IMG/VR virus record: IMGVR_UViG_3300031951_000034
Span: 1-64,000 of that record
Direction: 5' to 3' (one strand)
Length of the DNA: 64,000 bases
Source: a virus
In this document: in pieces, positions 8,685 through 29,909 of the stretch
Position numbering within the stretch: the stretch's first letter is position 1
Layout of the letters: each line of letters opens with the position of its first letter
Made by a program: the position numbers and the translations under genes
The notes under the pieces: model-generated
Database searches by the model: none
The model's input: only the letters and a program-made list of their open reading frames with translations
Told to the model about the DNA's origin: nothing

Positions 8685-9677
8685 ATGAATACTAACATTC
8701 CAGCTAAACTTATTAATGATAAATTCATGGAGAAGATCGCCTCGAACGATCTTAATAAAGCTGCTGAGGTCGCCACAGACTTCACACGTTTAACTCTCCG
8801 TGAAGAGGGTCTTCTTCGTAAAATCCTCCCACCTCAGACAATCACTGCCGCTGAGCTCGACAAACAGCTCGATACAGATGAGCCAGTCAAGATCGTTGAC
8901 AAAGAAGTTTCGCAACCACTCTCGATGAGCGTTGGTTTTGCTACTCTTCCTAAGAATCGTATCATGAAGGGTGACAGATATCGTGTTGACTTTGCTCGCA
9001 TCCTTAGCCCAAGCTACTTCCAAGACGTTCGTAGACTTGAGCAATACGATTACGATATCCGTAACGTGTTCAAAGAAAATGCGATTAAAGATCACATGAC
9101 AGCTGAAGACGTTCCATTCTTCCAGACAGTTGACGCTATCGTCGGCAACAATGGTAATAATGTGAGCGCCGTCACAGGTAAGGTTCAATACTATGACTTC
9201 ACAAATACAGCCAAGAACCCACTTGGTATTTCGACTGGCTGGACGCGTGAAGCCCTTGTAGAATCTACAAAAATCCTTTCGAAGGGTTTTACTCCTGCTG
9301 GTGCTGCACTTGGTGCTGAGCAAACTCCTATCCGTCTTAACACTGACCTCATCGTCATGAACGTTAATACTGGACGCGAGTACCTCAAGTTCCAACACGT
9401 CAATATCGGTGATCTCTCGACTGAGTTGTTCAAGGGCGGTCTTTCGGCCACTACACTTCTCGGCCACAAGCATCTCTTCACAATGAAGGACGACATCGTC
9501 AAGGACGGCGAGGTTTATTACTTTGCTGCCCCACAATTCCTTGGCAAGTTCTACGAACTCGAACAACCAACTATGTTTGTTGATCGTCGTGCGTTCATGG
9601 TTGAGTTCTTTATCTACTCCTCGATTGGTGCCTCTATCGGTAACCCATTTGGCGTGGCTAAAGCGAAATTCTTCTAA
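8685..9677 (+). CDS. Major capsid protein (HK97-fold type)
   Basis: A 330-residue protein with the organisation of large-phage major capsid proteins: a helical N-terminal arm with MEKIASND, a long beta/alpha middle with an insertion around 125-215, and a conserved C-terminal region (FLGKFYELEQPTMFVDRRAF) followed by FFIYSSIGASIGNPFGVAKAKFF, read as two consecutive parts. Codon use is strikingly biased to C-ending codons compared with the AT-rich surroundings, as expected for the most abundant virion protein. The gene has a GGAG ribosome site and is followed by a near-perfect intrinsic terminator. Its place after protease, scaffold and decoration genes supports the call. Confidence 0.82.
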   Translation: MNTNIPAKLINDKFMEKIASNDLNKAAEVATDFTRLTLREEGLLRKILPPQTITAAELDKQLDTDEPVKIVDKEVSQPLSMSVGFATLPKNRIMKGDRYRVDFARILSPSYFQDVRRLEQYDYDIRNVFKENAIKDHMTAEDVPFFQTVDAIVGNNGNNVSAVTGKVQYYDFTNTAKNPLGISTGWTREALVESTKILSKGFTPAGAALGAEQTPIRLNTDLIVMNVNTGREYLKFQHVNIGDLSTELFKGGLSATTLLGHKHLFTMKDDIVKDGEVYYFAAPQFLGKFYELEQPTMFVDRRAFMVEFFIYSSIGASIGNPFGVAKAKFF

Positions 9678-9704
9678 GAGTTTCCCTCCTGGTAAATAAA
9701 AACT

Positions 9705-9735
9705 GAGGCGGCAGAAATGCCGCCTCTTTTTTTTT
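9705..9735 (+). terminator. Intrinsic terminator after the capsid gene
   Basis: GAGGCGGCA (9705-9713) pairs perfectly with TGCCGCCTC (9718-9726) around a GAAA tetraloop and is followed by nine T residues (9727-9735). It is a textbook rho-independent terminator closing the head transcription unit. Confidence 0.93.
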
Positions 9736-9761
9736 GACAACTTAAGGTTATTTGTTATTAT
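9734..9761 (+). promoter_or_regulatory. Sigma70-type promoter immediately after the capsid terminator
   Basis: TTGACA (9734-9739), overlapping the end of the terminator T-run, is followed after 16 bases by TATTAT (9756-9761). It would restart transcription for the 9770 gene and the tRNA cluster. The expected start point is at or within a few bases of the ATG at 9770, so the mRNA could be nearly leaderless. Confidence 0.6.
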
Positions 9762-9769
9762 TTTTTAAT

Positions 9770-10300
9770 ATGAGTAAATATTCAAGCCTGTATTTAAACA
9801 AAATTGCTGAATCTATAAATGGCGAGGAAAAAAAATCTAAATCATTTAAGGAAAAAATTAAAACTTTTTTAAGAAACGTCGTGACAGGAACAGCTGCTGG
9901 AGCAGCTATCGGTGGAGGCGCTGGTTACGGATTAGCTGGACCCATTAGAGATATGACTAGCGGAATACCAGATATTCCAGGAGCTGCAATAGCTAGGGAA
10001 ATTCAAAATCCGTTATCAAATTTGAGGGGTGTAAGTATTCCAATGGGCATAGGTAGTGGAGCTATACTTGGAGCGTTAGGTGGCGCTACTCTTCCATACC
10101 TATATTCCAAGAGCGCACGCCAAAAGTTCTCAGATGAAAAACCATCTGGATTCATGACTAATATGCTTAAAGATATGACTCCTGACATAAAGAAAGATTT
10201 GGCCCCACAGGCCACTCAGGCAGACAAAAAATTCCAGGACGCCGTAAATAAATTAAAAGACAGTCACAAAAGCTTTAAAAATACATTTGGTTTAAAATAA
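9770..10300 (+). CDS. Glycine-zipper membrane-hairpin-type protein
   Basis: A 176-residue protein starting at ATG 9770 (MSKYSSLYLNKI); a longer frame begins further up but would lie in the promoter. Residues about 38-60 (TGTAAGAAIGGGAGYGLAG) and 92-112 (PMGIGSGAILGALGGATLP) are glycine-zipper hydrophobic stretches; the C-terminus is charged and helical. Its N-terminal signature MxKYxxxYLNK recurs in the 10973 and 11527 genes. Function unknown; the family's position around head and neck genes suggests a virion component that could act on membranes. Confidence 0.72.
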   Translation: MSKYSSLYLNKIAESINGEEKKSKSFKEKIKTFLRNVVTGTAAGAAIGGGAGYGLAGPIRDMTSGIPDIPGAAIAREIQNPLSNLRGVSIPMGIGSGAILGALGGATLPYLYSKSARQKFSDEKPSGFMTNMLKDMTPDIKKDLAPQATQADKKFQDAVNKLKDSHKSFKNTFGLK

Positions 10301-10306
10301 ATATAC

Positions 10307-10378
10307 TGCGGGATACAATTCTGGGAATTGGGGGGTCTCATAAGCCTCTTTAGGTGGGTTCGATTCCCACTCCCGCTA
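10307..10378 (+). tRNA. tRNA-Met (anticodon CAT)
   Basis: A cloverleaf can be drawn. The acceptor is TGCGGGA with TCCCGCT, with an unpaired T-T at positions 1-72. The D stem is CAAT/ATTG. The anticodon stem is 10332-10336 with 10344-10348, loop CTCATAA (anticodon 10339-10341). The T stem is GTGGG/CCCAC with a TTCGATT loop. CCA is encoded at 10379-10381. The mismatched first pair is reminiscent of initiator tRNAs, but the anticodon stem lacks their three G-C pairs, so initiator, elongator or a CAU-Ile tRNA remain possible. Confidence 0.85.
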
Positions 10379-10385
10379 CCATTAC

Positions 10386-10457
10386 GCCGACATAGCTCAG
10401 AGGTAGAGCTGCTGTTTTGTAAACAGCAGGTCGTTGGTTCGATTCCAACTGTCGGCT
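10386..10457 (+). tRNA. tRNA-Thr (anticodon TGT)
   Basis: Acceptor GCCGACA pairs with TGTCGGC. The anticodon stem GCTGT/ACAGC encloses TTTGTAA, giving anticodon TGT at 10418-10420. The T arm is canonical, with a TTCGATT loop. CCA is encoded at 10458-10460. It lies 5 bases after the Met tRNA's CCA, so the three tRNAs are processed from one transcript. Confidence 0.95.
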
Positions 10458-10465
10458 CCATTCTC

Positions 10466-10537
10466 GTCTCCATAGTGTAATGGTCAGCACCTTTCCCTTT
10501 CACGGAAATAGTAGGGGTTCAAATCCCCTTGGAGATG
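10466..10537 (+). tRNA. tRNA-Glu (anticodon TTC)
   Basis: Acceptor GTCTCCA pairs with TGGAGAT (one G-T pair). The anticodon stem TTTCC/GGAAA encloses CTTTCAC, giving anticodon TTC at 10499-10501. The T arm is GGGG with CCCC around TTCAAAT. CCA is encoded at 10538-10540. A Glu tRNA reading GAA suits this phage's Glu-rich scaffold and AT-rich codon use. Confidence 0.94.
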
Positions 10538-10553
10538 CCAACTAACATAAAAA

Positions 10554-10973
10554 ATGAATAGAATAAACTGGGAAGAGTACGCACTACAAATAGCAGGAGT
10601 AGCTAGAACAAGAAGCGAGGATCCATGGAAAAGGGTTGGTGTATGTATTCTAGACAAAAATAATAGAGTTATTTCAACTGGCTACAATGGATTAGCTCCA
10701 GGGAAAGTAGCTCCAGATGCTTTCTGGGAAGATAGAGAAAAAAGATTGCCGCTGGTAATACATGCAGAGACAAATGCATTATCGCTTGTAAATAACGGAG
10801 AAGGTTTTTTATTGGCTTCCACTTTAATGCCATGTCCAGCTTGTGCTTTGAACATAGCTGCACACGGCATAAAAAAGGTTATATACAAAGAAGTATACCA
10901 AAGGAGCGAAGAAGCTTTAAAAATTTTTGACTTTTACAATATTGAATACAAGCATATAATAAACACTATTTAA
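10554..10973 (+). CDS. Deoxycytidylate (dCMP) deaminase-like enzyme
   Basis: A 139-residue zinc deaminase. The active-site signature is complete: H70-A-E72 (HAETNAL), with E72 as proton shuttle, and P93-C94-x2-C97 (PCPAC) as zinc ligands. Family knowledge: dCMP deaminases convert dCMP to dUMP for dTTP synthesis and are common in large phages; the length fits. The early GYNGLAPG segment matches the substrate loop of this family rather than cytidine deaminases. It stands 13 bases after the tRNA cluster, in the tRNA operon, and its stop overlaps the next start. No thymidylate synthase is visible in the window. Confidence 0.88.
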   Translation: MNRINWEEYALQIAGVARTRSEDPWKRVGVCILDKNNRVISTGYNGLAPGKVAPDAFWEDREKRLPLVIHAETNALSLVNNGEGFLLASTLMPCPACALNIAAHGIKKVIYKEVYQRSEEALKIFDFYNIEYKHIINTI

Positions 10974-11512
10974 TGAATAAGTATTCAGAAAATTATTTAA
11001 ATAAATTGATTCAATCTGGATTAAACATGGATCACTCAAGGTCTTTTGTATCTGCAGGCAATCCAGCAAATCATGGACAAATATCTCCACTACAAGCCAA
11101 GTTGCAAGAACTTGGGTTAATGAGAAGACCTAATATATCTGATTATGCTTATGAATCAATGAAAGCTAGGGGTCGTATAACTAGTAAAAATATTCCGTCT
11201 ATATTAGCTTCAAACCCAAATTTAAAAATATTTGGTGAACTAGGAAAGAATACAATTTTTCAAGCATTATTTGATGCAATAACTCCAGGTGGAAGTAGGG
11301 TTGATGCATATAAATCAAGCCTAGGAAATTCATTGGGCGGATACGGTATTAAAAATATGGAAATAAATTCTGAATTATCTAAGAATTTTTTAAATAATCT
11401 AGATTCAACTATGGCTAATTCAGACGGTCAATGGGATTACTCAAAATCTCATGGATTTAATAGATCCGAGACAGTAAATAATTTAGCTGCATTTAAAAAG
11501 AAATTTGGATAG
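10973..11512 (+). CDS. Stand-alone copy of a tape-measure N-terminal domain
   Basis: A 179-residue protein whose residues 52-179 align with residues 86-216 of the 1807-residue tape-measure candidate at 21207. Both have RPxxSDYxxxSM, ASNP/AANP, a TPGGS-x2-DA motif, and the near-identical end DGQWDYxKSHGFNRxET followed by AAFxKKFG. The first 15 residues (MNKYSENYLNKL) instead match the N-termini of the 9770 and 11527 proteins. It overlaps the deaminase stop (TAATG). It could cap or interact with the tape measure or neck; function is unknown. Confidence 0.78.
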   Translation: MNKYSENYLNKLIQSGLNMDHSRSFVSAGNPANHGQISPLQAKLQELGLMRRPNISDYAYESMKARGRITSKNIPSILASNPNLKIFGELGKNTIFQALFDAITPGGSRVDAYKSSLGNSLGGYGIKNMEINSELSKNFLNNLDSTMANSDGQWDYSKSHGFNRSETVNNLAAFKKKFG

Positions 11513-11526
11513 TATAAATAAAAATT

Positions 11527-12018
11527 ATGAATAAATATGCAAATACATATATGGACTCATTATCAAAATCCATTAATGAGTATAAACCATTTAATCAAGT
11601 AGAATCAGTCGTTAAAGGACTCCCCGCTGCAGCAGCGGGTGGAGCTGGTATTGGTGCAATCCTCGGCGGATTAAGCCAAGCAGGTGATCCAGGGTACGAC
11701 AAAGATGGCAATAAAAAAAGTAGAGTCAAACAGATCCTAAAGGGCATGGCGCTTGGCGGTGCAACTGGCGGTGTTGTTGGCGGACTAGGCGCTGCAGCAA
11801 TCCCGTCCTTGTTTCAGGCAACACTTGAAGGTGGGAAAAATTTGGCAATGAAGAGTGTAGACAAAAATATTCCGAAGGACTCGATAAAAGGCAAAATTGA
11901 AAATTTCCTTAATAAGGGTAAGTTGCAAACACAAAGCGCAGTACTTTCAACTGGTATGCCGCAAATGAATGTTCAGCAACTCGGAGAAATGCTGAAATAT
12001 TATCAAGAGAATCAATAA
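11527..12018 (+). CDS. Glycine-zipper membrane-hairpin-type protein
   Basis: A 163-residue protein with N-terminus MNKYANTYMDSL, matching the 9770 and 10973 signatures. Two Gly/Ala-rich hydrophobic stretches (residues about 33-50, AAAAGGAGIGAILGGL, and 76-102, GMALGGATGGVVGGLGAAAIP) flank a charged turn (GYDKDGNKKSRVK). The C-terminus is Gln/Met-rich. The architecture is the same as in the 3646 and 9770 genes. Function unknown; possible ejection or vertex component. Confidence 0.72.
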   Translation: MNKYANTYMDSLSKSINEYKPFNQVESVVKGLPAAAAGGAGIGAILGGLSQAGDPGYDKDGNKKSRVKQILKGMALGGATGGVVGGLGAAAIPSLFQATLEGGKNLAMKSVDKNIPKDSIKGKIENFLNKGKLQTQSAVLSTGMPQMNVQQLGEMLKYYQENQ

Positions 12019-13962: not shown

Positions 13963-16716
13963 ATGGCTAAAAGAACATACTTACTCCCACAGGTGATCGT
14001 TCAGCAAGATTTTGTGGCGCTCCCAGCAGCCGCTACCCAAGATCTTATTGCAGTGATCGTAGGACCCCAAAAATTGGTCAGAGACGTTAATGATCCAGAA
14101 GACGAATCTTTCGTTGATTATGGCGCATACAACAGCGTTACCGATCAAACATATAAAATTAAAGGATACACAGATTCGGATCTTCTCGAAAGAGATTCCG
14201 TTTTGCTTAACCTTAAAAACGTTACCGCTAAGTACGCTCAACTTTCTTCTCCAACAATTTCGGTTGGAAGCGTTCAAAACTTGCTTAAAATTTCCGATTC
14301 GGCTGATGGATTCGTCGCATACCCAGAAATTTCCGCAAGCAGAAATGCTGCTTTCAAGAACAGAGACGTTAAGGTTGGTGACTCTGTAGTAGTTTCTTCG
14401 GGTGGTGTCACACAACTTAAAACAAGAGTGTTTGACATTATCCGTGACAGAGTTGACGCTCAAATAGGAACAATTTCTGCTGATATCAGCAATAAATTCT
14501 ACTCCAGCAATGCTTTTTCGGTTGCAATTAATGAAGCATCTCCTGGGAGTAGATCTATCGCAGAAAGTGTTTCAAGTGATTATTCTGGAGATCTTAGGGC
14601 TGGTAGATTGGACGACACCTATACAGTTACAGTTACTGCTGGTGGAAGTGGATCTGCTGCTAAGTTTTCTGTTACAAGCTTGAATGGCGACAATGTTTCC
14701 GTTTCTTCCATCTCTGGCATTTCGCTTGCTGTCGGAACAAATGGACTTTCCATAGACTTTAGTTCTACTAATAATTTCGTTATTGGAGACTCATATGTTA
14801 TCTCGGTAGCGAAACAATTTCAGCAAAGTCTCCCATCCATTGATAACGCCGACCCAGGCAAAGATTATGCAGGGTTGTATGACACTGTATATGAGGTTGA
14901 GGTTATCAGAGGTGGAACATGGAGTCAAAGCATCGAACTTGTTGTTACGACCAATAATGCAGTTGACGCACTTCCTCCGCAAAAGCTTAACACTACCGAT
15001 GGGACATTCTTCCTTGGCTCGCTTGGTCTTGTCGGCAAGATAAACCTGATGGCAAATGCAGGCTTAAGAACTGGTGATATATTTTATATCCCTGTTGTGG
15101 CCTCCACAGCTGGCGAAGCTAGAACTATCAAGTTGCTTGATAAAATTCCATCTTCTGTAAACCCCTTATCGTCTGTTACGGTTGAGTTTTGCCACAATGT
15201 TGATTCAATAGTCATTCCACGTGCTGGTTATCCTAGACCTGGTGACAACGCTTGGTCTCTTGATGTTGATGATGAAACTGGTGAAGCTAACTTAACACTC
15301 CAGAGCGATATATATATCAACGATTCTCAGTTTACTGAGTTGAGCGGTGCATTATCGAATCTTGAGATCAAGAGCGCTAGAGTGTTTATTGGATACAAAG
15401 CCCTTCAACTTCAAAATGCACTTAGAATCAATTCTATCTCCGAACCATCGCTTATCCCAGCTCAATGCGGTAAGTTGGTCCCAGAGAACCCAATTGCTTA
15501 CGGTGTGTTAAAGGCTCTTCAAAACTCTGGTGGAACCAGAGTTTACTTTGTTCCTGTTGATGAAGACAATCTTGACGGGTATACAAGAGCTTTTGATTCT
15601 ACGCTTAATGAGGTTACTGCTTACTACATTGTTCCAATGTCGAACGATGAAAGAGTGATCCAAGCTGCTAAGGCTCACGTTGTAAGTGCGAGTGATGAAA
15701 TGGTTGCACGCGAAAGAATTGCAATCGTTAATCAATCTTTCTCGCCAACTACAATGATTTACGACAAATTAGCCGACGGTCAGACTGCATGGACTGGCTA
15801 TGTTGAAATGGCTCCTGGCACTGAACCAGCAGTCTACAACAGAGTCACGATCCCTGGTGCATCGTTACTCACAGACAGAGTTAGAGCTGGGGATACCTTC
15901 AGATCTAACTTCACTATTGATGCGTTAGGTAATGACGTCTATCAATCGTTTAAGGTTGTTGAAGTTATCGATGAGCAAACACTTAGACTTGAGTCTCCTG
16001 CATTTGCTTCTCCAGTTGGATCTGAATCCTCTCCTCGTAGAATTCAAATCGTGAGAAACTTAACCAAACGTGAACAGGCTGAAAAAATAGCTGCGTCTTC
16101 TGAAAGATTGGGCAATAGACGTGTTGTTAATGTCTGGCCAGATGTATTGAGAGACGGAGATTTATCTGTTGCTGGTTATTTTGCTGGGGCTGCTATTGCT
16201 GGATTAAAATCTGGTGTTGCTCCTCATCAACCAGTCACAAACGTTGTTATTAATGGTTTCACTAGAGCAGACAGATCGACTCCTTACTTCACAATGACCG
16301 ACCTCAACATAGTTGCTGGCGGTGGAACATGGATTATCGACCAAGACAGAAATGGTGGAGAGATATTCAATAGACACCAATTGACGACAGATTACACTGA
16401 TGACAATATGGCTGAAGTATCGATCACGACCAATCTTGACTCGATTTCCAAGTTGATCAGAGAAGATTTGAGACAATTTATTGGACAATGGAATAACCAT
16501 CCGTTCTTCCAGCAGCTCTTAAAGACAAGACTTGTTGATAGACTTACCTTCTTACAAGGCAGAGCTGTTACAGTTAAAGCTGGTCCTCAGTTGTTGAACT
16601 TCGAGATAACAAACATTGGAACTGATCCATTGATCAGAACTAGGGTCCTTGTTGACATTAATCTTACGTTGCCTTACCCAGTCAACGTGATCCAAGTTAA
16701 ACTTACTGTTATCTAA
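13963..16716 (+). CDS. Contractile tail sheath protein
   Basis: A 917-residue protein with sheath hallmarks. The N-terminus is a strand used for inter-subunit handshaking (YLLPQVIVQQDFVALP). A variable, beta-rich central insertion follows. The conserved C-terminal core includes INGFTRADRSTPYFTMTDLN, a following helix IREDLRQFIGQWNN, and a final strand PYPVNVIQVKLTVI. It is longer than most sheath proteins (T4 gp18 has 659 residues), consistent with extra surface domains at residues about 150-450. C-ending codons are enriched as in the capsid gene. It is followed by two tube genes, the standard order. Confidence 0.93.
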   Translation: MAKRTYLLPQVIVQQDFVALPAAATQDLIAVIVGPQKLVRDVNDPEDESFVDYGAYNSVTDQTYKIKGYTDSDLLERDSVLLNLKNVTAKYAQLSSPTISVGSVQNLLKISDSADGFVAYPEISASRNAAFKNRDVKVGDSVVVSSGGVTQLKTRVFDIIRDRVDAQIGTISADISNKFYSSNAFSVAINEASPGSRSIAESVSSDYSGDLRAGRLDDTYTVTVTAGGSGSAAKFSVTSLNGDNVSVSSISGISLAVGTNGLSIDFSSTNNFVIGDSYVISVAKQFQQSLPSIDNADPGKDYAGLYDTVYEVEVIRGGTWSQSIELVVTTNNAVDALPPQKLNTTDGTFFLGSLGLVGKINLMANAGLRTGDIFYIPVVASTAGEARTIKLLDKIPSSVNPLSSVTVEFCHNVDSIVIPRAGYPRPGDNAWSLDVDDETGEANLTLQSDIYINDSQFTELSGALSNLEIKSARVFIGYKALQLQNALRINSISEPSLIPAQCGKLVPENPIAYGVLKALQNSGGTRVYFVPVDEDNLDGYTRAFDSTLNEVTAYYIVPMSNDERVIQAAKAHVVSASDEMVARERIAIVNQSFSPTTMIYDKLADGQTAWTGYVEMAPGTEPAVYNRVTIPGASLLTDRVRAGDTFRSNFTIDALGNDVYQSFKVVEVIDEQTLRLESPAFASPVGSESSPRRIQIVRNLTKREQAEKIAASSERLGNRRVVNVWPDVLRDGDLSVAGYFAGAAIAGLKSGVAPHQPVTNVVINGFTRADRSTPYFTMTDLNIVAGGGTWIIDQDRNGGEIFNRHQLTTDYTDDNMAEVSITTNLDSISKLIREDLRQFIGQWNNHPFFQQLLKTRLVDRLTFLQGRAVTVKAGPQLLNFEITNIGTDPLIRTRVLVDINLTLPYPVNVIQVKLTVI

Positions 16717-16740: not shown

Positions 16741-17190
16741 ATGGCTGACATCTTTGGAAGAACAGTAGTACCAGTTGGTGGAGTTTACTCCTCGGATACG
16801 GCAGTAATGACCGTATCCGGGGCAGCTGGCTCAGGAGCTGGTGCCTTGGTCCAAAATGTTGAAGCTACATATACACAACAAGTAAACCAAATATTTGAGC
16901 TAGGATCTAATCAGGTCTACATGCAACTTGGACGTGCACAAGGTAATTTGACGATAGGAAAAATTCTTAGCAATCAAAACTTTGATAAAGCATTGTTCAA
17001 CTCTTGCGCTGGTGGGGCAACCTGTATAATACAGGCCTCCTCTGGCTGTCAGGGGCAAGGCAGCTCAAAACTAAAAGGTAAAACACTTACGGGTGTATTT
17101 GTAACTCAGTATGGAGTTTCGATGACAACTCAAGACCTTCTCATAAGAGAAAACCTCGTGGCTATGTTCACGGGGATGCAAGAATCATAA
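16741..17190 (+). CDS. Tail tube protein, copy A
   Basis: A 149-residue beta-rich protein immediately after the sheath. It is a clear paralogue of the next gene (identical PVGGVYSSDTAVMTVSG start, shared QLGRAQGxLTxGKILSN, FNSCAGG, QASSGCxGQG, LTGVFxTQYGVSMTTQDLL). Tube proteins polymerise into the inner tail tube; the size and place fit. The two genes share a 44-base stretch of identical DNA (16768-16811 and 17254-17297). Confidence 0.75.
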   Translation: MADIFGRTVVPVGGVYSSDTAVMTVSGAAGSGAGALVQNVEATYTQQVNQIFELGSNQVYMQLGRAQGNLTIGKILSNQNFDKALFNSCAGGATCIIQASSGCQGQGSSKLKGKTLTGVFVTQYGVSMTTQDLLIRENLVAMFTGMQES

Positions 17191-17223: not shown

Positions 17224-17763
17224 ATGGCTAATGACCTTTTTGGAAGATCAGTGGTACCAGTTGGTGGAGTTTACTCCTCGGATACGGCAGTAATGACTGT
17301 GTCTGGGACAACATCCTCTGGCGTTGGAGCTTTAGTTCAAAACGTCGAGTGCAGTTATCAACAACAAGTTACTCAATTGTTTGAACTTGGTTCAAATTCG
17401 GCTTACATGCAACTTGGACGTGCACAGGGTCAATTAACTGTGGGCAAAATCCTCAGTAACATTGACTTTGATAGAGCATTGTTCAACTCTTGTGCCGGTG
17501 GTGGAACAGTTATTATCCAGGCTTCCTCTGGTTGCTATGGACAAGGAACTTCTACACTTAGAGGTAAGACACTTACTGGCGTTTTTATAACGCAATATGG
17601 TGTATCTATGACAACTCAAGACCTCTTGATTAGAGAAAACTTGGTTGCTACGTTTGTCGCTATGCAGGAGTCTACTCCAAGCAAAAACCCTAACGAAGTG
17701 GTAAATCCTGCTTCGAGAGCTCAAACTGTTGCAAACGCCGCCGCTGCTGCTGCTGCTGCTTAA
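17224..17763 (+). CDS. Tail tube protein, copy B, with poly-alanine tail
   Basis: A 179-residue paralogue of the preceding tube protein, longer by a C-terminal tail that runs TPSKNPNEVVNPASRAQ and ends in eight consecutive alanines (GCC/GCT run at 17735-17760). Either the two copies form different parts of the tail (for example tube and a tip/end ring), or one has been specialised. Which copy is the major tube protein cannot be told from sequence; copy B has more expression-biased codons. Confidence 0.75.
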   Translation: MANDLFGRSVVPVGGVYSSDTAVMTVSGTTSSGVGALVQNVECSYQQQVTQLFELGSNSAYMQLGRAQGQLTVGKILSNIDFDRALFNSCAGGGTVIIQASSGCYGQGTSTLRGKTLTGVFITQYGVSMTTQDLLIRENLVATFVAMQESTPSKNPNEVVNPASRAQTVANAAAAAAAA

Positions 17764-17858: not shown

Positions 17859-20249
17859 ATGGCACAAAGAAATTCAACATCTCCTAGTTACAGATCGATG
17901 TCTGCTGGTATGCCATCGCCATCTGATCCCATCAATGCAACTAATAGCGATTATGTAGACAGAGAACCTAATCAATATGCACAGTTTTCTGTGATGATAG
18001 GAAGAGTAGTTGATAGCTGGCCAGAACATAATACTGCATTGGTGTCCGTTGGGTTTAATGCATACATTAGATGCGTTTATAATGCATCAATATTTGGCAG
18101 TGTAAGTGCTGTAACAGAGATTTATTCTCCGCAAATAGGTGATCATGTTATTGTTTCTAAGGCTCAAGATACGACATATGGTATAATTATTGCATCTGTT
18201 CTTATGCCTGGAGAGGCTATTAAAGGCTCTAAAATCACTCCATCAATATTTAAAGAATACAAGCAAACATTTTTTTCTATAGGCAAGCCATCTACATTTG
18301 ATTGTGATGAATTAAAATTAAATGCAGACCAAACATCTATCCCTAGCGATGTTATTCCTGGAGAGGTTTCTTCTATATCTGAAACTCATGTAGGTAGAGT
18401 ACAGGGTAAGTATTATTATAGAACTCAAGCTGGAAATCTTGTTTCTATAACTTTAAATTCAATAGATGATCTATTAGACGTAGTTGCCCATAATACTCAA
18501 ATATATAATTCATCATTTAGGTTAAGAGGGTTTTGCGACTATGGAAGAAGCAATCTTGAGATATTGTTTTCTCCTGACCTGAAATCGTTCGTTAAAGATC
18601 AAAGAAGCAATCACACAAACAAGATGACTTCTGGATGGCTTTCATCTGGTATCGGTCTAGAAACAAATAAAAGCGTCAAGCAGGGGACCTCTCATTCAGA
18701 TACATGGGTTGACGAACTAGGCATACAATCTGTCTGTACCACTTCTTCAGCGTGGATGCAAAAATTAAATGGTCTATATTTTCCTATACAGCAAAAACAA
18801 GAAGACGATTTAAATAACGAAGGGGATAAAGAAATATTTGACGCTGCACAAAGGAAGGGATTCAAAATATCTCCAGAGGATCAACATCCAGCTGCTTTTG
18901 GGTGTATGGCAAGAGACTATACGGCATGGCAAATGTCTGGGGGATATAGATTTAAGAGATACGAGAAATACGAAAAAGACTGGAAAGATCCAGAGCCAAA
19001 AGAGGGCAAAAAAAATGAAATGGGTGGGGGGCAATACTGCTCTTTTGGGAAGATTAACGTTATTAAGCAAGAAGTAGAGGGACTATCCGATTACCAGCAA
19101 TCAAGAGAGGGTGAAGCTTTTTGTGGTGTATTGCCGGATGGTTCAGTTTTACTGAGAGACGCATGGGGATCTAGCGTAGAGCTAAGAGGAGGAAAGCTTG
19201 TTTTAACCTCAGTAAAAGACATAGAAATAATATCAGGTAAAAATGTAATTGCACTAGCTGGAAATGACTTAGTATTAAAGGGCAAAAAATCAGCAGAAAT
19301 ACACACAACTGAACAAAACATTAGAATTAGATCCGGTAAACACACGTTAATAGATTCTAAAAAGGGCAGTATACAATTAACTGCATTAGATAGCGGTGGA
19401 GTAGATGTAATAGGAAAAACTGGAGATGAATACATTCCGTCAGGTATAGTGCTAAAAACTAATACAAATGTTTTGTCCAGAGCGCCTATAATCAATTCTG
19501 TTGCAGACGTAGCTGTCGCTATAATGGGACCAGAAAACAGTACTGGTCCATTTGTTTTAGTAAGATCTAGTGCATCTCTTCACTGGGCGGATACAGTTCA
19601 TTTTATGTATACTGAAACAGGCACGCCTCCAAAGAGAAAGGGTATGGTAATGGTTGGTGCTGGAAGTGTTCAATGCGGTCAATTTGGGGTTTTTGAGGAA
19701 ACTGCATATACCAAAGGATATTGCATGGCTGAAAAAAGCTTGATTGCTATAGACCATATTTTTACAAATGGAATACATGGCTCAAAAAGAAATTATCCAT
19801 TTGTTGTTCCGCTTAAGGATCCAATTAAGATACCTCCAGAAGAATATGAAAGATACGCAAAGTTTGGCGAAATATCTGAGGAGGTTCCACAAGTAAAGGT
19901 CATAGAAGATTGTAGAGCACCATGGGTAACTGAGGATTATCCAGAAATAGCATGGAGGTATAGAAAAATAAAAGAATATAACACTCTAGAGCATTTATGG
20001 TTTGAATCTTTTTGGCAAAGACAGTATAAAGATAATCTTAAAACTTGGGACCATTCATCAGATAAGGACATGTACAAAGAAATGGCATGGCCAGGAAAAG
20101 AATATCTAGATGGATCTAAACAGTGCTGGATAACATACAAAGAAAAGAATGTATCAGAAGACGGAACGCCAAAAATGTATAAGGAACAAACAGATGAGGG
20201 CGGAAGTTTTGAAAAATTAACATACCAAGATATAAAATATCACGCATAA
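17859..20249 (+). CDS. Baseplate spike/hub protein (gp5/VgrG-like, OB fold plus beta-helix)
   Basis: A 796-residue protein. Residues about 40-112 form an OB-fold-like domain (FSVMIGRVVDSW, ALVSVGFNAYIRCVYN, YSPQIGDHVIVS), as in gp5/gpV-type spikes. Around residues 420-530 there are short beta repeats (LRGGKLVLTSVKDIEIISG, LVLKGKKSAEIHTTEQ, IRIRSGKHTLIDSKKGS) characteristic of the triple-stranded beta-helix needle. The C-terminal 200 residues are aromatic-rich and may be an accessory domain. No lysozyme motif is seen in the 240-residue insert between the OB fold and the helix. It would form the membrane-piercing tip at the end of the tube. Confidence 0.8.
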   Translation: MAQRNSTSPSYRSMSAGMPSPSDPINATNSDYVDREPNQYAQFSVMIGRVVDSWPEHNTALVSVGFNAYIRCVYNASIFGSVSAVTEIYSPQIGDHVIVSKAQDTTYGIIIASVLMPGEAIKGSKITPSIFKEYKQTFFSIGKPSTFDCDELKLNADQTSIPSDVIPGEVSSISETHVGRVQGKYYYRTQAGNLVSITLNSIDDLLDVVAHNTQIYNSSFRLRGFCDYGRSNLEILFSPDLKSFVKDQRSNHTNKMTSGWLSSGIGLETNKSVKQGTSHSDTWVDELGIQSVCTTSSAWMQKLNGLYFPIQQKQEDDLNNEGDKEIFDAAQRKGFKISPEDQHPAAFGCMARDYTAWQMSGGYRFKRYEKYEKDWKDPEPKEGKKNEMGGGQYCSFGKINVIKQEVEGLSDYQQSREGEAFCGVLPDGSVLLRDAWGSSVELRGGKLVLTSVKDIEIISGKNVIALAGNDLVLKGKKSAEIHTTEQNIRIRSGKHTLIDSKKGSIQLTALDSGGVDVIGKTGDEYIPSGIVLKTNTNVLSRAPIINSVADVAVAIMGPENSTGPFVLVRSSASLHWADTVHFMYTETGTPPKRKGMVMVGAGSVQCGQFGVFEETAYTKGYCMAEKSLIAIDHIFTNGIHGSKRNYPFVVPLKDPIKIPPEEYERYAKFGEISEEVPQVKVIEDCRAPWVTEDYPEIAWRYRKIKEYNTLEHLWFESFWQRQYKDNLKTWDHSSDKDMYKEMAWPGKEYLDGSKQCWITYKEKNVSEDGTPKMYKEQTDEGGSFEKLTYQDIKYHA

Positions 20250-20253
20250 AAAT

Positions 20254-20811
20254 ATGGAACAAAAAGAAACACTACAATCGATAAAAGAGTCAGCTATTCC
20301 TACTATAGAGGGTAATGAAACAACTAGCTCTTCTCTAAAGCTACCAAGACTAGAAATAACAGATAAAGATAGAGATCTTTACGCTGAGTGTTTAGCTACT
20401 GGAAACGTATTTAGACAGAAGTTTGAAAACACTAAGTTAAAAATTAATATAGAACTAAAAGATAAAACAAAAAAAGAGACAGACATCATCTCAAGACAGG
20501 TAGATAAAATATATAACGATGGACTACTATATTCAGTCCAAGAATATATAAATTTATTTAACTTAGGCTGTTTGTATTATCAATTGGCGTCAATTAACGG
20601 CGTAGAACAAATCAAAGAATATCCAGCCAGCGTATGGGAAATGAAAGACTTTAATTTATTGACCGCAATAGATAAAAGTCCGGTAGGGTCTCTTCCCTCT
20701 TCAAGTTTGTATATATTAATGGGGATGATGACACAATTTAACCAAAAACTTTACGATTTGGCAAAAGAAGCATTTGATGTAAATTTTTCGAAACCCGCAA
20801 AAGGTTCCTAA
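20254..20811 (+). CDS. Tail assembly chaperone, short form (G-like)
   Basis: A 185-residue helical, charged protein just before the tape-measure gene, the classical place of tail assembly chaperones. Near its end, codons GTA AAT TTT contain the slippery heptamer A AAT TTT (20781-20787) in the correct phase, and a strong hairpin follows. Most ribosomes would stop at TAA 20809-20811 (short form); some shift -1 and read the downstream frame (long form). In other phages G/GT chaperones coat the tape measure during tail assembly. Confidence 0.72.
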   Translation: MEQKETLQSIKESAIPTIEGNETTSSSLKLPRLEITDKDRDLYAECLATGNVFRQKFENTKLKINIELKDKTKKETDIISRQVDKIYNDGLLYSVQEYINLFNLGCLYYQLASINGVEQIKEYPASVWEMKDFNLLTAIDKSPVGSLPSSSLYILMGMMTQFNQKLYDLAKEAFDVNFSKPAKGS

Positions 20812-20834
20812 CCAGACAGGCCTTTTTGCGGGGT
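20781..20834 (+). promoter_or_regulatory. Programmed -1 ribosomal frameshift signal
   Basis: The slippery site AAATTTT (20781-20787, phase X XXY YYZ) is followed after 6 bases by a stem. CCCGCAAAAGG (20794-20804) pairs with CCTTTTTGCGGG (20821-20832, one bulged T), and flanking AAA/TTT can extend it. The stop codon of the zero frame is in the loop. The -1 frame is open from 20778 through 21149. Confidence 0.72.
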
Positions 20835-21149
20835 TTGACTGGTAGTAGTAAGTCTGTTGAAGATATGCCGTTGCTGTATGAAAAGATACGGCTTGAGATG
20901 GCTCGTGGAGGTTTTGAGCACGAAAATTACATGGAGATACTCAAGACAAAGATAAATGTTTTAGGTGGAATGAATTTTATATCACCAGAAAACATAAATA
21001 AGGCAAATTCAAATAGAACTGAAAACTTCAATAAATTCATAGAGTCTTGCTACCCATACATAAAATTAGCGAAGCCAGAGGCCAAAAAAATGAAAACAAA
21101 TGAAGAGTTAATAGAAGAATATAAAAAGATGTTCCCCGACATGAAGTAA
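20787..21149 (+). CDS. Tail assembly chaperone, frameshift extension (T part of GT-like protein)
   Basis: This open frame has no credible own start (only a TTG at 20826 without a good ribosome site). It lies in the -1 frame relative to the short chaperone and overlaps its end. After the slip at 20781-20787 it adds 120 residues, giving a fusion of about 298 residues. The extension is helical (LLYEKIRLEMARGGFEHENY) and ends in a Lys/Glu-rich helix. Independent translation from TTG cannot be excluded. Confidence 0.7.
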   Translation, partial: FETRKRFLTRQAFLRGLTGSSKSVEDMPLLYEKIRLEMARGGFEHENYMEILKTKINVLGGMNFISPENINKANSNRTENFNKFIESCYPYIKLAKPEAKKMKTNEELIEEYKKMFPDMK

Positions 21150-21206: not shown

Positions 21207-24200
21207 GTGAATCCATATAGCATATTAGATAACCAAAGGGTCCCAGGTTTTGGTGGTGGAGTGAACCCAGAAATTCCACCTGGAGTTAATTTGCCATACG
21301 GTTATCCATCGTTCTCAGCTATAGACAGAGCAAGAAATGCCGCAAACTCTGGGTTTGCACCAGCTTCGTCAATAGCTACAGGAAATCCGATGTTCGATAC
21401 GATGATAAATTTAATGATGTCATCGTTTAATGGTGGAAGGCCAATGCTAGGTACATTTAAGAGGCCAACAGTATCGGATTATCAGCAAACCTCAATGCAG
21501 GAAAGATACAGGGTTTTTGACTTAGCTAAACCATCACTACTTGCAGCAAATCCAATGTTAGCTGAATTAGGCGACATAGGACAAAATAGATTGTTCCAGG
21601 AGTTCATGGACCAATATACACCAGGCGGAAGTATGACTGATGCATTCGGCGTAGTGATGGGGAATTTTACTGAAAATATGGCTGGTCCTGGTATTAGGAA
21701 TGCAGAAGCAAATGCCATACACGCAGCAAACATAGTTAGGAATGTTAGCAATGGAATGTCAGACAAAGATGGACAGTGGGATTATTTTAAATCTCACGGT
21801 TTCAATAGAGCAGAAACATTCCAGAATATGGCTGCATTTAATAAAAAGTTTGGTGGTTATGTTGGTGAAATAACTGATCGATCACAGCAAGCAAAAGATA
21901 ATAATTTATCTAAATTAGCTGGAGAGGTATTAAAAAGGCCATCTCTTCCTTATGGTCCAACCCCACAGAGAGTACAGGAAATAGATCAGGCAAGAAAAGA
22001 TCATGCAAGGGCACAAAACATTTTATCTAACCAGACGTTAGATATACCAACTCCAAAGGTAAACGTAACAGAACCAGTTAAACTAGCTAGAGATGTTATA
22101 GAGAGAGCAGACAGAGAAGGAAAACTAACAGTAGAGGATAAAGAGGAAATATCTAAATATTCTGAAGCTCTTAATGCAATAAATACATTAAACCAGCAAA
22201 ATACTGAGAACGTTAAGAATACTGAAAATCAAGAAAATATTACTAATACTGAGAACGTTACCAATACTACAAATACCACAAACGCTACAAATAAAACAGA
22301 TAAAGTAGAAGAAATAATAAAAAAAATAGATGAAAGAGTTGGGGTAAACACCCCAGAAATGCCCGAAACGCCAGTTGAAATAGATGATACCCCAAAGTTA
22401 GATACAACTATTAATCAGGTACAAAAAATAATTGAAAAGCATGGGACTAAACAAGAGATAGAGACTTTTAATAACCAAAAGGAGACCATACTTAAGCAGT
22501 CTAAAAGATCTGTAGATATAACAGAACCATCCAAATTAGTTAGAGATGTACTGTCAAGAGCGGACCAAGAGGGAAGAATAACCGAGCAAGACGCAAATAA
22601 AATACAAGAAGAGTCACCCAAAATTATCAATGCTATTAGTAAGGTTCCGGGAACTCAACCAAGGGTAAGCACAGAATCAAGAAATAAAGCAACTAGCACT
22701 TTAGACCAACTATCTAATATTGTAGAAAAATTTGGCACAGACGACGAGAAAACTAAATTTAAGCAGGAACTACAAAAAATAAGTAAAACAGATAAAATCC
22801 TTGTAAACGATAGTATAGCTGAAAAAGAAAAAATACAAAAAAACGAAAGTGATAGATTATCTGAAATAAATTCAAATTTCTCTTCCGAGATAGAACAATT
22901 ATCTACAGAGGAAAAAAAACAAGATTTTAGGCAAAAAGTACAAGAACTTACTGGTTCAAACTTAAAGGCTATAGACAAAAAAATAGATTCCGATTTTTCG
23001 GGTATCATAGACGAGATAGAGCAACCAGAAAAGAAAGAAGAATTTAGACAAAAATTACGAAAAGTTGCTTTTTCTGATAAGGGAAAATTAAAAGAAGAAA
23101 AATCTAGTACGGAAACTCCTAGAATAGAAAATGAATTTTCTGACATCATCGGTAAAATACAGGAGCCAGAAAAGAAAAAGCAGTTCATAGAGAGTGTTAA
23201 AAAAATAAGTGAATCCAAAACAAATGAGATGGATTCAAATATAAACAAAACAATTTCAGAAACCCCTCAAATACTGGAAACACCAAAAGAGGAGCAGCAA
23301 CAAATCAAAGATAGATTTAAAAAATTCGCTGAATCATCTGCGTCAGAAAAAAGCAGCAATTCAGAAGATATATATAATCAATCCAAGTATCATGAGAAAG
23401 AATTTGCTGATATTATCAATAATCTTCCAGAGGAACAAAAACAGCAATTTAGTCAAAAAATACAAGGCTTAACTGAGTTTGGATCAAATAATATACAGGA
23501 ACAAGAACGCAAAATAAAAGAAAGTTTCCCTGAAATAATTGAAAAATTAGACACACAAGAGAAAAAACAAAATTTTGTATCTAGGGTCCAAGATATTCAA
23601 AACTATGAACAAAATAAAACATCACAACAAAAATATTCTGATACAGGTGGCTTGGATTTAATTGGAGAACTGGATTCACCAAAAGAAAAGCAAGAATTTA
23701 GTCAAAAAATGCAGGAGATAGATAGACAGTCTCCAGCGCAGAAAAGCGAAGGATTTTCATCGAAGCTTAATCCTTTTAGAGAAAAAGAGGTAAAGCAGAT
23801 AGATATAACCGCACCTACTGCTCTAGCAAAAAATGCTGTAGATAGGGCCAGAAAAAATAATATTATATCTGAGAGAGACGAGAAAGATCTTTCATATTAC
23901 TCTGACGCAAATGAGGCTATTAACACTCTTTCTTCAATGGAGGAAAGTCAAAAGGAGAAAGATAGGAACTCTAGGGTGAACGTAGCGCCTGGACAGGATC
24001 TTGATAGCCACTTATCTGAATATGAAGTTGCTATTAAAAAATACGGGACACCAGAAGAACAAAAAACTTTTGAGGAGCAAAAAAATAAGATAATTGAATC
24101 AACAACAGTTGATTTAACCGATACGGCAAAATTAGTTAAACAGGTGATGCAGAGAAAATCTGAATTACCTAAAGACGATAAAGCTAAACAAGAAAAGGCA

Positions 24201-26630
24201 AAAGAAGCTGAAAAATTAGTCAAGCAATTAGATGAAACTGGAACAGTCACAAGAAGAAATGATGAATCATTAGTTAAAACGATTGATGACGTTTCAGAGG
24301 TTGTTAATTCTATTGGGACAGAACAAGAAAAGAAAGAATTCGCCAAACAATCAAGTAGCGTAAAGAAAAAACTAGGAATACAAGAAAGCAACTCAACAAT
24401 TAGTTCTGAAAAAGAAATAGACATAAGTGATCCAACTAAGCTAGTTAGGGGAATAGTTGAAAGAGCAGATAAAGAAGGCAGAATAGGAAATAAAGAAAGA
24501 GAAGAAATATCCTCTTATACTGAGGCCGTTGACGCTTTGACAAAAGCCAAGAAACAAGAAGAAACTAAAACGAAGACAGATACAGACAAAAAATCAAGCA
24601 ATGTATCTGTGACAGGCGAAGAAAAACTTAGAGCGACATTAGATCAATTCTCAAAAATAGCTTTAAAGCTTGGCACTGAAAACGAAGTGAGACAGCTTAG
24701 ACAGCAATCAGACACTATAGTACGAGAAAATAATGACAAGGTAGAGCAGGCAAGAAATACCGAAAAAAATATAATAGAGAAATTCGGTTCAGAGAAAGAC
24801 ATAAAAGAAGCTAAAAAAATAACCGAAAATATACCAAGCTCTGGGCTACAATCTCTATCCGAGACAAGAACTCCACAGAATGCAAAAGAGCAAGACAAAC
24901 AGGTAGAAGATATAAGCGAGCTTAATAGCATGGTTAGGGAAGCTCAAAACGTTTTCGGTTCAGATACTGGTCTAGGTGAACTAATGGATAGGGTAGGAGA
25001 TCTTGTCGAGGGGGCATCAGGAATGTCTACAGGAAAGGTAAGAGACTTACTGCAAAAAATACAAGCTACCGCTGTTGTTGTTGATATGAGTAACGAAGCA
25101 ATTGCTAGGTATTTCGAAGTGACAAATGAGATGTACAAAGGAATGGGTGTGAAGGGGGGCAATCACACAAATATGGCTCAAAACGCATTAATCGCTGCAA
25201 AAGGCGTTACAGATGCAAGAAAGAAAGAAGCTCAGGCCAAGGGTGAAATGTATACAGGTGAATCTACCGAAGAAATGGCCGTTAAAATAGCTGAATACCA
25301 AGGAAGAGTGGCTAGATCATCAGAAAACCAGGATTTAGCTGCTGCACTTGCTACTCTTGGGACAGAGGGGGAAGAAGGTAGAGTAGGCCAAGAAATGAAG
25401 CAAGCAATGGACGCAGGAGACTTCAAAAAAGCCAGAGAAATAAAAGAACAAGCTATTTCATCCGGTAGAATATCCAAAAATACTGAATTGATGATGTCTA
25501 TAAGGTCAGCTGAATATGAAAAAAATGGTGGTGTATCAGAAAATGACTATAAACTTATACAGTCAAAATATGGAATGGATGGCGACTATTTCAAGAACTT
25601 GACGGGGGAAAATTATGAATTTGTCCGTAAACAAGTATACGGGAACATAGCCGACACGATACTTGGATCAAGAAATGATTCAATTTACGCCAGTACGATA
25701 GAGGAAACTGGGGTCGGGAAAGAGGGCACCGCAAAATTAAGGGAAGCTATATCAGATGGCAAAATAACACAGGAAGACATTACAGATGATAAAAAGTTAA
25801 AACAAAAAATATCTGAAATATTGCCAACAGCAAACCAAGAACAAATTCAACAAATTGCAGGGACAATTGGTACCGCATCTAACCAGGGTAATGTTGTAGA
25901 TCAATTTAAGGTAGCTGGAAGTGAAGAGGCAATGAAAGAGATAGCAAATATAAACAGGGAAAGAGCGGAAGTGGACGCGGAAGTTAAGCATGTAAATGAG
26001 ACAAGAGGTCCCTTACTCAGGGATTTTAATATAGGAGAAAAGGCAATGGGTGTGATGTCTAAGGTCTATAAGGACTTAAAAAAAGAGGGCAATGAGGACG
26101 GGCAAATTAGTTTCGAAAGCGTTGTGAGGTCGGCTAAGGGCCAACTTGGCGATTACGACAAAATGACAGCCAAAGAAAAGGAAATAGGAGAAGCTCAATT
26201 AGATTTAGTAACAGGAAAGGGTGGAAAACTTGTCGAGATGCACTCCACGGCAAAACAAGAAGCACATGAAGAAGCAGTAAAGGAAGTAGCTAAAATAGAA
26301 AAAAGCGGTACAAAATTAAGTGAAGAAACGAAAAAGAAATACACTGAAGAATACGAAAATAAAATATTCGAAGAAAAGAAAAGTAAAATAGCCGAAGAAC
26401 TTGAAAACGGAAAAGTAAAATTACAAGGAGAGGAAGCGGAAAAAGAAAAGAAAAATGATTTCGACCCCAAAAATGCATTAGATAGAATATTAACAGCATT
26501 AGAGGGAATAGCTGGTAAGCTTGGGGTTGAGACGAATAAAGCTTCTTCAAAGAGTTCTACTGGTGGGGCGGAAAGCAAAACAGAAAACAATGGATCATGG
26601 TGGAACCCATTTGATCCAAGACCAAAATAA
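21207..26630 (+). CDS. Tape measure protein candidate with modular repeats
   Basis: An 1807-residue protein starting at GTG, no Shine-Dalgarno site. Domains: a Gly/Pro-rich N-terminus (1-85); residues 86-217 homologous to the free 10973 protein; a long charged, largely coiled-coil region (about 250-1270); and a more globular, Gly/Ala-containing C-terminal part (about 1290-1650) before a final Lys/Glu helix. The coiled-coil holds five copies of a module beginning [VI]DITxPxKLVRDVxxRAD, at about residues 284, 435, 864, 968 and 1070. Each is followed by a IxxKxGTxxE helix. About six copies of a 45-residue FxxIIxxLxxxEKKxxFxxxVQ unit lie at 556-842. Size and position after the chaperones indicate the tail length ruler. 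Confidence 0.75.
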   Translation: MNPYSILDNQRVPGFGGGVNPEIPPGVNLPYGYPSFSAIDRARNAANSGFAPASSIATGNPMFDTMINLMMSSFNGGRPMLGTFKRPTVSDYQQTSMQERYRVFDLAKPSLLAANPMLAELGDIGQNRLFQEFMDQYTPGGSMTDAFGVVMGNFTENMAGPGIRNAEANAIHAANIVRNVSNGMSDKDGQWDYFKSHGFNRAETFQNMAAFNKKFGGYVGEITDRSQQAKDNNLSKLAGEVLKRPSLPYGPTPQRVQEIDQARKDHARAQNILSNQTLDIPTPKVNVTEPVKLARDVIERADREGKLTVEDKEEISKYSEALNAINTLNQQNTENVKNTENQENITNTENVTNTTNTTNATNKTDKVEEIIKKIDERVGVNTPEMPETPVEIDDTPKLDTTINQVQKIIEKHGTKQEIETFNNQKETILKQSKRSVDITEPSKLVRDVLSRADQEGRITEQDANKIQEESPKIINAISKVPGTQPRVSTESRNKATSTLDQLSNIVEKFGTDDEKTKFKQELQKISKTDKILVNDSIAEKEKIQKNESDRLSEINSNFSSEIEQLSTEEKKQDFRQKVQELTGSNLKAIDKKIDSDFSGIIDEIEQPEKKEEFRQKLRKVAFSDKGKLKEEKSSTETPRIENEFSDIIGKIQEPEKKKQFIESVKKISESKTNEMDSNINKTISETPQILETPKEEQQQIKDRFKKFAESSASEKSSNSEDIYNQSKYHEKEFADIINNLPEEQKQQFSQKIQGLTEFGSNNIQEQERKIKESFPEIIEKLDTQEKKQNFVSRVQDIQNYEQNKTSQQKYSDTGGLDLIGELDSPKEKQEFSQKMQEIDRQSPAQKSEGFSSKLNPFREKEVKQIDITAPTALAKNAVDRARKNNIISERDEKDLSYYSDANEAINTLSSMEESQKEKDRNSRVNVAPGQDLDSHLSEYEVAIKKYGTPEEQKTFEEQKNKIIESTTVDLTDTAKLVKQVMQRKSELPKDDKAKQEKAKEAEKLVKQLDETGTVTRRNDESLVKTIDDVSEVVNSIGTEQEKKEFAKQSSSVKKKLGIQESNSTISSEKEIDISDPTKLVRGIVERADKEGRIGNKEREEISSYTEAVDALTKAKKQEETKTKTDTDKKSSNVSVTGEEKLRATLDQFSKIALKLGTENEVRQLRQQSDTIVRENNDKVEQARNTEKNIIEKFGSEKDIKEAKKITENIPSSGLQSLSETRTPQNAKEQDKQVEDISELNSMVREAQNVFGSDTGLGELMDRVGDLVEGASGMSTGKVRDLLQKIQATAVVVDMSNEAIARYFEVTNEMYKGMGVKGGNHTNMAQNALIAAKGVTDARKKEAQAKGEMYTGESTEEMAVKIAEYQGRVARSSENQDLAAALATLGTEGEEGRVGQEMKQAMDAGDFKKAREIKEQAISSGRISKNTELMMSIRSAEYEKNGGVSENDYKLIQSKYGMDGDYFKNLTGENYEFVRKQVYGNIADTILGSRNDSIYASTIEETGVGKEGTAKLREAISDGKITQEDITDDKKLKQKISEILPTANQEQIQQIAGTIGTASNQGNVVDQFKVAGSEEAMKEIANINRERAEVDAEVKHVNETRGPLLRDFNIGEKAMGVMSKVYKDLKKEGNEDGQISFESVVRSAKGQLGDYDKMTAKEKEIGEAQLDLVTGKGGKLVEMHSTAKQEAHEEAVKEVAKIEKSGTKLSEETKKKYTEEYENKIFEEKKSKIAEELENGKVKLQGEEAEKEKKNDFDPKNALDRILTALEGIAGKLGVETNKASSKSSTGGAESKTENNGSWWNPFDPRPK

Positions 26631-29195: not shown

Positions 29196-29909
29196 ATGGA
29201 TCAAGACCCTGAAAAATATTGGCAAGAATGGAAAAAGAAGCCAACCCCGGAGAATCTTTTAAATACTGTAAAGGCTTTTGACGGATTAATAAATACAAGC
29301 ATCGGACAACAAAAATCAATAAATCCTACGTTATTAAGAAGTAGAGCAAAGATTTTAGTTTCACAAGCAGTAAAAACATACTCTCCATCTGAGGGGACAA
29401 GATTATCTACACATGTATATAATTATCTCAGGCCATTGAACAGAGACGCTAAAAACATGACAGAAATATCCCCATTGTCTCGTCACTTTAGCGAGGAAAC
29501 AGGTAAATATATAAATTTTATAAATGAATTCTCTCAGGAAAACGGAAGAGAACCAGACGATTCGGAAATAATGGATAATCTTGGTATAAGTAAGGGTAAA
29601 TTAAATAAATTAAACCAATCAGTAAAATATGAGATTCCAGAGAGTCAATTAGTTGGTGGGGTAGAATTAGATGAAGACGAGGAGTCTAATAGATTAAATT
29701 TATGGACAGATTATGTCTACAACGATTTAGATAGTTTTGGCAAAAAAATATTAGACTACAAATTAGGTAGGAACGGTAATCCAGTGATGTCAAATGATGA
29801 CATTGCCATAAAACTTAAGATTTCCCCGTCAGAGGTTTCAATTAGGTCGGCAAAAATAGCTGAAAAGATATTGAATGGAGTAAACTCCAGAGAAAAAATA
29901 ATACAATGA
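29196..29909 (+). CDS. Sigma-70-family-like factor within the baseplate cluster
   Basis: A 237-residue protein with the layout of an alternative sigma factor. Residues about 45-80 (RAKILVSQAVKTYSPSEGTRLSTHVYNYL) correspond to region 2, with the typical G-T-x-L-x-T-[HY]-x-Y segment. About 95-145 resembles region 3 (FSQENGREPDDSEIMDNLGISKGKLNKL). About 175-225 is a helix-turn-helix like region 4 (MSNDDIAIKLKISPSEVSIRSAKI). It lies between hub and wedge genes and its stop overlaps the next start. It may direct late transcription, or the fold may have been reused structurally; neither can be decided from sequence. Confidence 0.68.
   Translation: MDQDPEKYWQEWKKKPTPENLLNTVKAFDGLINTSIGQQKSINPTLLRSRAKILVSQAVKTYSPSEGTRLSTHVYNYLRPLNRDAKNMTEISPLSRHFSEETGKYINFINEFSQENGREPDDSEIMDNLGISKGKLNKLNQSVKYEIPESQLVGGVELDEDEESNRLNLWTDYVYNDLDSFGKKILDYKLGRNGNPVMSNDDIAIKLKISPSEVSIRSAKIAEKILNGVNSREKIIQ

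Follow-up and report, generated by a model that had tools for sequence, protein, structure and literature searches.

A probable −1-frameshifted tail assembly chaperone in a divergent lineage of contractile-tailed phages

Frameshifted tail assembly chaperones are known in phages P2 and Mu and in lambda, a siphovirus whose slippery site is G_GGA_AAG. They are widespread in long-tailed phages, with a higher level of shifting in P2 (PMC5009743). Among myoviruses, phage Adele and its relatives combine a frameshifted chaperone that has a conserved GTTTTT motif with multiplied tube genes (PMC12846349), and in Bacillus phage G (NC_023719) the annotation joins gp181 and gp182 into one tail assembly chaperone. 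Here we describe a two-frame locus in a 64,000-nucleotide stretch of viral DNA (the window), which makes up the first 64 kb of a viral contig of 131 kb. We consider it very probable that ORF A of this locus encodes the tail assembly chaperone of a phage with a contractile tail and that a −1 frameshift extends this protein into a long form of 299 aa.

ORF A (20254..20811) encodes 185 aa and is assigned as the N-terminal chaperone protein (TAC-N, the analogue of lambda gpG) on the basis of its reading frame, its homologues and a predicted fold match to 2ob9 and 3klu. It is overlapped by an open −1 frame (20778..21149), a putative T-like C-terminal extension (B) whose post-shift codons run from 20787; these frames, the junction elements and the neighbouring tail genes all lie on the + strand. 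The −1 frame is closed upstream by a stop at 20775-20777 and ORF A ends with a TAA at 20809..20811, so that any shift must fall between position 20778 and the stop of A. A slip of one base would give the junction ...N F / F E T R K R F L T R Q A F L R G..., after which the frame stays open to 21149, with 120 codons beyond the junction and 113 beyond the stop of A. The preliminary description had pointed to a correctly phased AAATTTT, to a downstream stem over the zero-frame stop and to a position just before the tape measure, and we recover all three: the heptamer A_AAU_UUU occupies 20781..20787 in phase with A (GTA AAT TTT TCG), the stem pairs 20794..20804 with 20822..20832, and the A/B pair (20254-21149) directly precedes the tape measure gene (21207..26630). 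Its account of the −1 frame as 'start-less' over 120 codons holds for the length and for the stretch 20787-20825, in which there is no start codon; further on, a TTG at 20826..20828, the first possible start, and an ATG at 20865 are both in frame.

The layout resembles that of lambda gpG/gpGT in that a single gene immediately ahead of the tape measure would give a short and a −1-extended form, the slippery site comes close to where the first frame ends and the extension domain has more than 100 residues. It differs in the slippery site, in the tail type, in a putative spike gene upstream of the chaperone and in the absence of any detectable sequence relationship to the lambda proteins. The myovirus setting, which had at first been offered as a contrast to the lambda-like phages, is not unusual in light of P2, Mu and the Adele-like phages discussed above. 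The chaperones of Vandenendeviridae and Andersonviridae, to which the Adele work refers (PMC12846349), share with this locus the contractile tail, multiplied tube genes and a −1 shift ahead of the tape measure gene, where TAC-N ends in a conserved poly-T motif (GTTTTT); the window instead carries AUUUUUC with a conserved stem, and the likeness drawn here is one of motif and layout. Bacillus phage G has a distantly related sheath (gp178), followed by two tube-like or structural genes, the joined chaperone pair and the tape measure, and the predicted fold of gp181 resembles that of A, whereas a sequence comparison of A with gp181 gave no match. Phage G has no spike gene in between, and its heptamer, A_AAA_AAC, lies directly before the stop. 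In the phage G sequence the gp181/gp182 pair spans 10472-11574, and this A_AAA_AAC is its likely shift site.

In the surrounding tail module, the sheath gene (13963..16716), related to the annotated tail sheath gp178 of Bacillus phage G, is followed by two putative tail tube genes, assigned by position (16741..17190 and 17224..17763, the second 81% identical to the first), and by a putative VgrG/gp5-like spike gene (17859..20249), for which the evidence is its position and a weak DUF2345 match (E 0.033, below the cutoff). The 1807-aa product of the gene after B has a homologue of 789 aa in one of the related lineages described below, L011, with which both ends can be aligned; the combination of a large length difference and conserved ends is how a tape measure protein behaves. 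The altered gene order, with a putative spike between tube and chaperone, had been remarked on at the outset and is present in all three lineages that we compare, since the two relatives of the window share the order sheath, tube, putative spike, A/B and tape measure. The tandem pair of tube-like genes is seen in the window, and each of the two relatives has one tube gene. In L003 the chaperone and the tape measure are separated by a nucleotide-metabolism-like gene (DUF4406+DUF6378, 8847-9563) that overlaps the end of B; in L011 a transposase-like gene (IS200/REP-type) and other ORFs, identified by eye, occupy the same interval (9423-11616).

A DNA-level search of the phage collection found nothing similar to the window. 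Protein searches of IMG/VR returned two independent relatives, L003 and L011, whose ORF A is 57-58% and 47% identical to that of the window and whose −1 frame is 53% and about 53-54% identical to B. Two further contigs were not counted as independent, since L012 has the same sequence as L011 and L002 shows no difference from the window in the 1061 bases compared. The comparison thus covers three distinct lineages only, all of them metagenome-derived. No relative of B was found in GTDB genomes, where a 9-residue motif pattern matched only contigs without a relative; the same pattern in IMG/VR returned the known lineages and two contigs without a convincing relative. Among more distant sheath relatives (L019-L026), a homologue of A or B was not detected. 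Both relatives have the same two-frame layout, in which the −1 frame is entered shortly before the first frame ends, and in both the two frames, the in-phase U-run and the stem are retained. Together with the fold match of A, this supports the initial reading of the locus as a −1-frameshifted chaperone of the G/GT type.

The string AAATTTT carries no meaning by itself, occurring 65 times in the window against 52 expected. Its setting is distinctive: the + strand ORFs of 100 aa or more contain 209 X_XXY_YYZ sites in phase, and the one at 20781 alone is followed by a −1 extension of at least 30 codons beyond the stop of its own frame. Conservation of the heptamer had been named beforehand as a test of the frameshift, and the outcome is divided. 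The slippery codons are AAU UUU in the window and in L003 and GAU UUU in L011, so that the exact X_XXY_YYZ pattern is held in two of the three lineages and becomes A_GAU_UUU in the third, while the core AUUUUUC (20783-20789) is invariant. From pairing rules, the Asp-tRNA of L011 would re-pair poorly on AGA, and the UUU codon would still be able to slip on UUUU. Because the core and the stem are conserved and the exact heptamer is not, slippage of a single tRNA on UUUU is possible. Either the heptamer works without its P-site half or slipping occurs one codon later, on U_UUU_UCN. L011 carries an exact U_UUU_UCC, and the window U_UUU_UCG, ahead of a close structure. In Podospora, −1 shifting at U_UUU_UCC has been reported (PMC5009743), and there too the site precedes a close structure, although it is read by eukaryotic ribosomes in an unrelated gene; a motif named 'five' is listed among phage −1 motifs by PRFect (PMC10885494). 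We tentatively raise the idea, which we think somewhat improbable, that the essential slip here is that of one tRNA-Phe on UUUU, within the core U_UUU_UCN and with the stem nearby, and not the tandem slip on A_AAU_UUU, such that loss of the P-site half is tolerated. An internal Shine-Dalgarno-like AGAAG or GAGG lies about 10 nt upstream in the window and L003; by eye, L011 does not have it at the same spacing, and we make no claim for it.

The stem is formed by the arms CCCGCAAAAGG (20794..20804) and CUUUUUGCGGG (20822..20832), and its loop contains the stop of A. Its stable part begins 6 nt past the heptamer; closer in, some additional weak pairs could form. A 73-nt fold of the region has a predicted free energy of -23.4 kcal/mol (z -2.2; 5 of 200 shuffles were as good), and the stem region is the most stable of the 284 segments of 45 nt in the gene. 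As the preliminary description had suggested should be examined in homologues, the stem is kept in both L003 and L011: in each of the three lineages 6 nt separate the UUU codon from a CCCGC...GCGGG stem, a spacing within the 5-9 nt of the canonical −1 signal. Counting pairs across the three lineages showed no compensatory change, and since 9 of the 11 pairs never vary, pair counts do not separate the stem from coding constraint. The 3' arm overlaps Phe-Leu-Arg-Gly codons that are identical in all three lineages. Elsewhere, invariant residues kept their codon in 16 of 49 cases for two-fold degenerate amino acids and in 4 of 45 for those of higher degeneracy, which puts the chance of all four codons being kept at about 2e-4, a rough figure that was derived from a hand-copied list and ignores composition. 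An H-type pseudoknot between the loop and downstream sequence could form in all three lineages; each candidate pairing is near chance (shuffle P 0.20, 0.12 and 0.07), and we do not claim it. A search of Rfam gave one sub-threshold chance match only.

The zero frames of the three lineages end in NFSKPAKGS, NFSIPAKGF and DFSDPAKDS, each followed by the stop, and the corresponding −1 frames begin FETRKRFLTRQAFLRG, FYTRERFLIRQVFLRG and FRSRKRFLIRQAFLRG. This stretch bears on whether B could instead be a separate gene, translated by coupled re-initiation at the TTG at 20826, 14 nt after the stop of A, or at the ATG at 20865. Both codons are in frame and conserved in all three lineages, and a short AGG (20818-20820) lies ahead of the TTG. 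Against this, the −1-frame residues F, R, R, F, L, R, Q and F ahead of the TTG are conserved, including an arginine whose codon changes in its first base (AGA, AGG and CGT across the lineages), and this protein-level conservation upstream of the TTG argues for entry from the frame of A. The TTG would, moreover, sit inside the stem, and neither it nor the ATG has a Shine-Dalgarno match of more than 3 bases; we therefore regard an independent start of B as very unlikely. Slippage of RNA polymerase on the T-run, in place of the ribosome, appears more improbable still. The run of five T that it would use is invariant in all three lineages, but five T is shorter than the runs usually needed for transcriptional slippage, and a stem at 6 nt fits ribosomal shifting. 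Least likely of all, and already refuted by the homologue sequences, is a sequencing error or a decayed gene, for which the frame break itself and nothing else speaks, given that three independent lineages, all metagenome-derived and at ~47-58% protein identity, share the break at one position and that both frames are under constraint.

Neither A nor B has a match above the cutoff in Pfam, PHROG or NCBIfam, which says little, since tail assembly chaperones diverge fast. A structural model of A was built with AlphaFold from the three-sequence alignment and is fairly confident (pLDDT 76.6, pTM 0.75); that of B is unusable (pLDDT 50). Foldseek returned nothing significant for the model of A against the PDB, and the matches to solved chaperones come from re-alignment of the Foldseek candidates with VIA-align. 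The top two were the HK97 tail assembly chaperone 2ob9 (Z 6.1, 99 of 107 residues) and YqbN 3klu (Z 5.5), and all other rows had Z below 4. Residues 44-167 of A are predicted to share this fold, at a sequence identity of 6-8%. In BFVD the best match of A was the chaperone of Rhodococcus phage Finch, and others included gp181 and gp182 of Bacillus phage G. Values of 5.5-6.1 represent a moderate fold match; with the two best solved matches in the chaperone family and the viral models in agreement, these moderate scores suggest that A has the chaperone fold.

The analysis shows the anatomy of the sequence, its conservation and the fold match of A. It suggests a model for expression of the gene pair by −1 frameshifting, in which we infer the shifting, its rate and the binding roles of the products as follows. 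Most ribosomes would terminate at 20809-20811 and release the 185-aa short form. A minority would pause at the stem-loop that spans the stop and slip back one base on the U-run, either by re-pairing from AAU UUU to AAA UUU or with the Phe-tRNA on UUUU alone, and these would continue to 21149 to give the long form of 299 aa, extended at its C terminus by 120 aa. If lambda gpG/gpGT is a guide, a large number of short-form and a small number of long-form copies may coat the tape measure protein, with the extra domain of the long form recruiting the tube protein. The case is ordinary in kind, being a known mechanism in a divergent, little-studied phage lineage. It assigns a function to a gene pair that matches no family, in three phage lineages that are otherwise uncharacterised, and adds an instance in which the A-site U-run and the stem persist although the slippery heptamer does not keep its P-site half. 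Frameshift predictors built on a required X_XXY_YYZ can profit from this case, which also supplies a correct annotation of the fusion.

Several other features of the tail region were seen in passing. Upstream of the sheath, the gene at 10973-11512 encodes a 179-aa protein with 48% identity over 136 aa to residues 81-216 of the tape measure, in its N-terminal part, and is a stand-alone paralogue of the end domain of the tape measure. This protein and two other consecutive, otherwise different ones (9770-10300 and 11527-12018) have an N-terminal tag in common, which reads MSKYSSLYLNKI, MNKYSENYLNKL and MNKYANTYMDSL in the order 9770-10300, 10973-11512 and 11527-12018; the corresponding tag in L011 (159-833) is MNKYAKLYLTEI. 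In the distant relatives L019 and L020, a (F)WxGFEKxA-like tag is instead present at the start of, or within, many small proteins. These shared tags are possibly signals for targeting to the virion or procapsid. Amid the baseplate genes, the window encodes a Sigma-70 region 3-like protein (29196-29909; Pfam E 5e-6), which is conserved in L011 (16612-17322).
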